Part shown: piece after piece, positions 39,581 through 39,596 of the stretch | Numbering within the stretch: the first letter of the stretch is position 1 | Layout: each line of letters begins with the position of its first letter | NCBI GenBank assembly: GCA_905182015.1 | Contig: CAJIZT010000006.1 | Coordinates: 62,001-126,000 of the forward strand | Reading direction: 5' to 3' | DNA: 64,000 nt | Source of the DNA: an alpha proteobacterium MED-G09 | GTDB taxonomy: Bacteria; Pseudomonadota; Alphaproteobacteria; MED-G09 | Program-made: the position numbers and the translations under genes | Notes under the pieces: generated by a model | What the model was told of the DNA's origin: nothing | Database searches by the model: none | The model's input: the letters and a program-made list of their open reading frames with translations, nothing else

Positions 39581-39596
39581 AGCAATAATCATGCCA
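39581..39596 (-). promoter_or_regulatory. Sigma-54-type promoter of the P-II gene
   Basis: On the minus strand TGGCATGATTATTGCT matches the -24/-12 consensus TGGCAYRN4TTGCW at all constrained positions, with the invariant GG and GC at the right distance. The start site would be about 12 bases beyond the GC, leaving a leader of about 34 bases with an AAGGAG ribosome site. No clear NtrC site was found upstream in the AT-rich 114 bases towards the thiolase-like gene. Confidence 0.75.

Follow-up and report, generated by a model that had tools for sequence, protein, structure and literature searches.

In Chlamydia, sigma-54 works with a single activator and serves a small regulon within a reduced genome. 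In the alphaproteobacterial glnB(-glnA) promoters that depend on NtrC and sigma-54, a -24/-12 element lies shortly upstream of the P-II gene, a glutamine synthetase gene follows downstream, and NtrBC and RpoN are present. The NtrC regulon of Caulobacter includes glnBA and glnK-amtB, and the NtrCs of Caulobacter and Rhodobacter lack the GAFTGA loop (PMC10274813). The sigma factors of SAR11 strain HTCC1062 are limited to sigma-70 and sigma-32, and the strain has NtrY/NtrX (PMC13198564); the SAR11 nitrogen response is called P-II-independent in a title by Smith et al. 2013 (to which PMC13198564 refers).

The locus described here lies in a 64,000-nucleotide stretch of DNA (the window, to which positions without a contig label refer). 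It shares with the glnB(-glnA) systems the features named above, and differs from them in its GlnII-type synthetase, its very AT-rich spacer and the lack of a recognisable NtrC palindrome, none of the canonical TGCAC type having been recognised by eye in the upstream regions inspected. As in Caulobacter, NtrC is predicted to control two operons, one for P-II and glutamine synthetase and one for an ammonium transporter; unlike in Caulobacter, the NtrC loop is present, the -24/-12 sites are conserved, and amtB is paired with torF rather than glnK. The system resembles that of Chlamydia in its one activator, small regulon and reduced genome, but its activator is NtrC, it is directed at nitrogen genes, and its lineage is not known to be host-bound. 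With SAR11 (Pelagibacterales) it shares a small AT-rich alphaproteobacterial genome, a likeness and not an established kinship, whereas P-II, GlnD, NtrBC and RpoN are kept here and the sigma factors are not those of the SAR11 set.

The P-II locus and its -24/-12 element

The P-II signal protein gene (39198-39536, minus strand, 112 aa) was identified by a Pfam P-II match of 106.6 bits, against a cut-off of 25. A type-II glutamine synthetase gene (GSII; 38006..38995, minus strand, 329 aa) lies downstream and is called GlnII-like from its match to the GlnII model, whose score of 369.8 bits is below the cut-off of 500. The promoter region is bounded by a divergent thiolase-like gene (39711..41243, plus strand), which apparently lies outside the regulon. 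A Rfam scan of the P-II locus gave no matches.

The predicted sigma-54 promoter, TGGCATGATTATTGCT, occupies positions 39581..39596 of the minus strand. Read from 39596 to 39581, it has its -24 GG at 39595-39594 and its -12 GC at 39583-39582, separated by 10 bases, and it satisfies the pattern TGGCAYR-N4-TTGCW, being one base off the strict TGGCACG (with T in place of C at position six). The -12 C is 45 nt from the P-II ATG, and the transcript is predicted to start at ~39570, ~12 nt past the -12 GC. The preliminary description had claimed a -24/-12 element with correct GG-GC spacing, placed 45 bases upstream of a P-II gene; the strand reading and the exact pattern match bear out the element, and the Pfam match the nature of the gene.

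This element is real and conserved, and very probably a functional NtrC/sigma-54 promoter of the P-II gene. On the evidence of sequence comparison, we infer with high confidence that P-II is expressed from it by sigma-54, most likely together with the glutamine synthetase gene, and that NtrC activates it under nitrogen limitation; transcription, nitrogen dependence, the place of NtrC binding and GSII cotranscription are predicted parts of this reading. The glutamine synthetase gene is probably served by the P-II promoter at least in part, through a putative cotranscript. RpoN-RNA polymerase would wait on the element in a closed complex; under nitrogen shortage, GlnD/P-II signalling would let NtrB phosphorylate NtrC, and phosphorylated NtrC would open the P-II promoter.

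A repeat element and a second P-II protein

The order to which this genome belongs is represented here by 18 genomes in 1 family and 3 genera. Between P-II and GSII we found a TGTGTAA repeat element (39135..39165, minus strand) with three repeats, whose starts are 15 and 9 bases apart. The pattern TGTGTAAN8TGTGTAR matches exactly at 13 places in the order, every one of them at the P-II/GSII locus, where genome G002 carries a copy with one mismatch. In genus 1 the element is found between the two genes, ~150-200 bp ahead of GSII; in genus 2 it is upstream of the P-II promoter and in the opposite orientation. The repeats are a candidate NtrC binding site.

The genome also encodes a second P-II with an N-terminal extension of ~50 aa (G000:C7:24895-25389, L307:3896-4390; relatives L308-L320). 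All 14 order members read have the extension, in frame with P-II, and it is conserved as strongly as the P-II part. It shares 44% identity with the N-terminal stretch of a Xanthomonas plasmid protein, and that stretch matches Pfam RHH_1 with an E value of 0.00097 and 19.5 bits, just under the cut-off of 20.5; the second P-II itself gave no direct RHH match in Pfam and NCBIfam. The AlphaFold model of the fusion places two helices where an RHH domain needs them, at low confidence. Folded alone, the 52-residue extension is all-helical, and a structure search with this model returned no match, so that the domain call is one of sequence homology. The second P-II is thus a probable ribbon-helix-helix (CopG)/P-II fusion and a putative DNA binder, and no paper on such a fusion was among the titles listed in a literature search. 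Plasmid P-II matches that seemed to reach into the extension were set aside, since in the one case checked the upstream frame was unrelated and the annotated P-II had 112 aa.

The fusion may conceivably bind the TGTGTAA repeats and control the P-II/GSII locus alongside the NtrC/sigma-54 promoter, as a second and more direct nitrogen switch, although we regard this as unlikely. If it were so, the P-II protein itself would be a DNA-binding transcription factor, and a fusion that binds DNA could represent a novel type of nitrogen regulator. A rival reading, likewise unlikely, is that RpoN binds the -24/-12 site while another regulator, possibly the RHH-P-II fusion, mainly sets P-II/GSII expression through the TGTGTAA element and leaves sigma-54 a secondary role. 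The restriction of every exact match to this locus, the position of the genus 1 element ahead of GSII and the conservation of the probable RHH-P-II fusion are in its favour; against it, the genus 2 element is near the P-II promoter, where it is equally a candidate NtrC enhancer or could serve the divergent thiolase-like gene.

Conservation of the element and the expectation by chance

The case for the sigma-54 promoter is carried by its conservation in the order. The element is kept at 15 of the 15 P-II genes of this type, that is, in every order genome where the gene was found, and its flanks have diverged. Its distance to the start codon is 30-45 nt in these genomes and in the MAG SI039_bin91, a near relative whose name suggests to us an origin in Saanich Inlet. 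The element of G002 differs in the last base alone (TTGCC). Pairwise identity within the order is 94.5% at the 11 fixed positions of the P-II element and 65% in its spacer, falling to 43% over the 60 bp ahead of the element and 46% over the 30 bp that follow it.

We also considered that the element is a chance match to a degenerate consensus and that P-II is transcribed solely from an ordinary sigma-70 promoter, which we judge very improbable. Composition alone does predict two to four perfect matches in the genome: under Markov models of window composition, TGGCAYN5TTGCW is expected ~1.7-4 times per 1.35 Mb genome, and 5 were observed. A spacing control gave 3 matches in the genome with 6 free bases against the 5 with the correct 5 free bases, so the match alone says little. 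A control with the reversed pattern (11 vs 98) was set aside, as the reversed pattern is CG-rich and the comparison unfair. However, the probability of a perfect match in one given 60-bp promoter interval and in the right orientation is ~1e-4, the constrained bases are kept in 15/15 genomes while the flanks drift, a perfect site also stands at torF-amtB and at rpoN/moaA, and rpoN and ntrC are retained. The lone perfect match is weak evidence, and conservation is the decisive evidence that the element is real. Outside the order, all 15 class-level loci read have a TGGCAY...TGC element within 200 bp of the P-II start, and the arrangement is therefore ordinary for the Alphaproteobacteria.

RpoN, NtrBC and GlnD

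The genome encodes the proteins that such a promoter would need. A single intact rpoN is present, with all 3 Pfam domains, an NCBIfam rpoN_sigma match above the cut-off and an intact RpoN box (ARRTVTKYR). The two findings that the preliminary description had said would refute it, a genome without rpoN and an element lost where the gene is kept, were both looked for in this analysis, and neither was obtained. Both NtrB and NtrC are encoded, ntrC directly behind ntrB, as is GlnD. NtrC has receiver, AAA+ and Fis-type DNA-binding domains (TIGR01818, 586 bits, cut-off 558.6) and no other sigma-54 activator was found in the genome, the remaining PF00158 match being a ClpA-type ATPase. A single NtrC was also found in 15 of the 18 order genomes, and wherever matched it is the sole true sigma-54 activator. 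Its loop reads GSFTGA at 14 of the 15 order NtrC loci and is intact in this genome; this variant is considered compatible with sigma-54 activation (PMC4641369). It is very improbable that NtrC instead works with sigma-70, in the manner known from Caulobacter or Rhodobacter, and that the -24/-12 site is a relic. Such NtrCs do exist in Alphaproteobacteria (PMC10274813), but those are without the GAFTGA loop whereas GSFTGA is intact here, and rpoN and the -24/-12 sites are under constraint.

Across the order, rpoN was found in 15/18 genomes. Two observations count against the sigma-54 promoter reading: no canonical NtrC palindrome was recognised upstream, and domain and full-length protein searches did not find rpoN in G002, G008 and G011 (the last of genus 3), where the element is still present. 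The three genomes are, however, draft bins of 76-95% completeness, in which true loss and missing sequence look alike; either a natural loss or missing sequence is possible.

A small predicted sigma-54 regulon

Analysis of the 18 order genomes revealed 83 perfect sites, 39 of which stand at four recurrent, correctly oriented promoter positions: the P-II gene (14), the rpoN/moaA intergene (15), torF (6) and a TonB-dependent receptor gene (4). The remaining 44 sites amount to 2.4 per genome, about the chance expectation.

In this genome a perfect site lies upstream of torF, which is followed by amtB (G000:C4:25938-27911, L117:3939-5912). The amtB gene encodes an ammonium transporter of the marine subtype (TIGR03644), and its partner a TorF-type porin and not glnK. 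Another perfect site is located between the divergent rpoN and moaA genes (G000:C4:49559-49699, L118:3560-3700; relatives L211, L219, L222, L233, L271 and L282), and points away from rpoN, whose start is 20-32 bp distant in most genomes. Ahead of moaA the distance is 74-81 nt, except that in four genomes a 54-aa membrane ORF intervenes and begins 36 nt from the -12 C of the site. Identity is 99% at the fixed bases of the rpoN/moaA site and 52-55% in its flanks. The site may act as a promoter for moaA, as a brake on rpoN, or as both. In Rhizobium leguminosarum, rpoN is reported to be negatively autoregulated, in work cited in PMC3538637, and sigma-54 sites at rpoN have been inferred in many classes (PMC12316311). 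The same RpoN/NtrC pair probably drives torF-amtB and the rpoN/moaA site.

In four genus-2 genomes (L245, L249, L258 and L261), a TonB-dependent receptor gene carries a perfect upstream sigma-54 site, which suggests a nitrogen-scavenging receptor in that genus.

Several further sites were left out of the regulon. Two were set aside as chance: the perfect site at 52531-52546 (minus strand), antisense at the nuoA start, and the one at C8:96739, inside a coding gene. The recurrent TGGCATTAAAATTGCT matches of genus 1 are antisense within a coding gene, and the two extra TGGCATCAATATTGCT sites of G011 fall in a single mgtE-like gene that appears twice, at two contig ends. A site at 2-oxoglutarate dehydrogenase, seen in G006 and G009 alone, and one at a substrate-binding-protein gene, seen in G010 and G014 alone, were not counted, each pair being close genomes. 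At the second P-II, a site with one mismatch (C7:25065) runs antisense inside the coding sequence.

Taken as a whole, sigma-54 is read here as serving a very small, nitrogen-centred regulon with one activator.

Retention of sigma-54 in a small genome

The lineage is that of a small-genome, probably marine alphaproteobacterium, and the preliminary description had considered its retention of sigma-54 noteworthy against a streamlined background. The contrast with SAR11 is fair, but the retention is not exceptional: of 385 alphaproteobacterial genomes sampled, 292 carry rpoN, many of them 0.8-1.5 Mb in size, and keeping it is thus less surprising than had been implied. The P-II promoter itself is a textbook arrangement of an already known type, and the interest is mainly in the minimal regulon around P-II. 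A 1.35 Mb alphaproteobacterial genome keeps, unlike SAR11, the whole GlnD/P-II/NtrBC/RpoN chain. With sigma-54 apparently narrowed to a few promoters under one activator, this lineage would offer a clean natural case of what a minimal sigma-54 regulon must contain.
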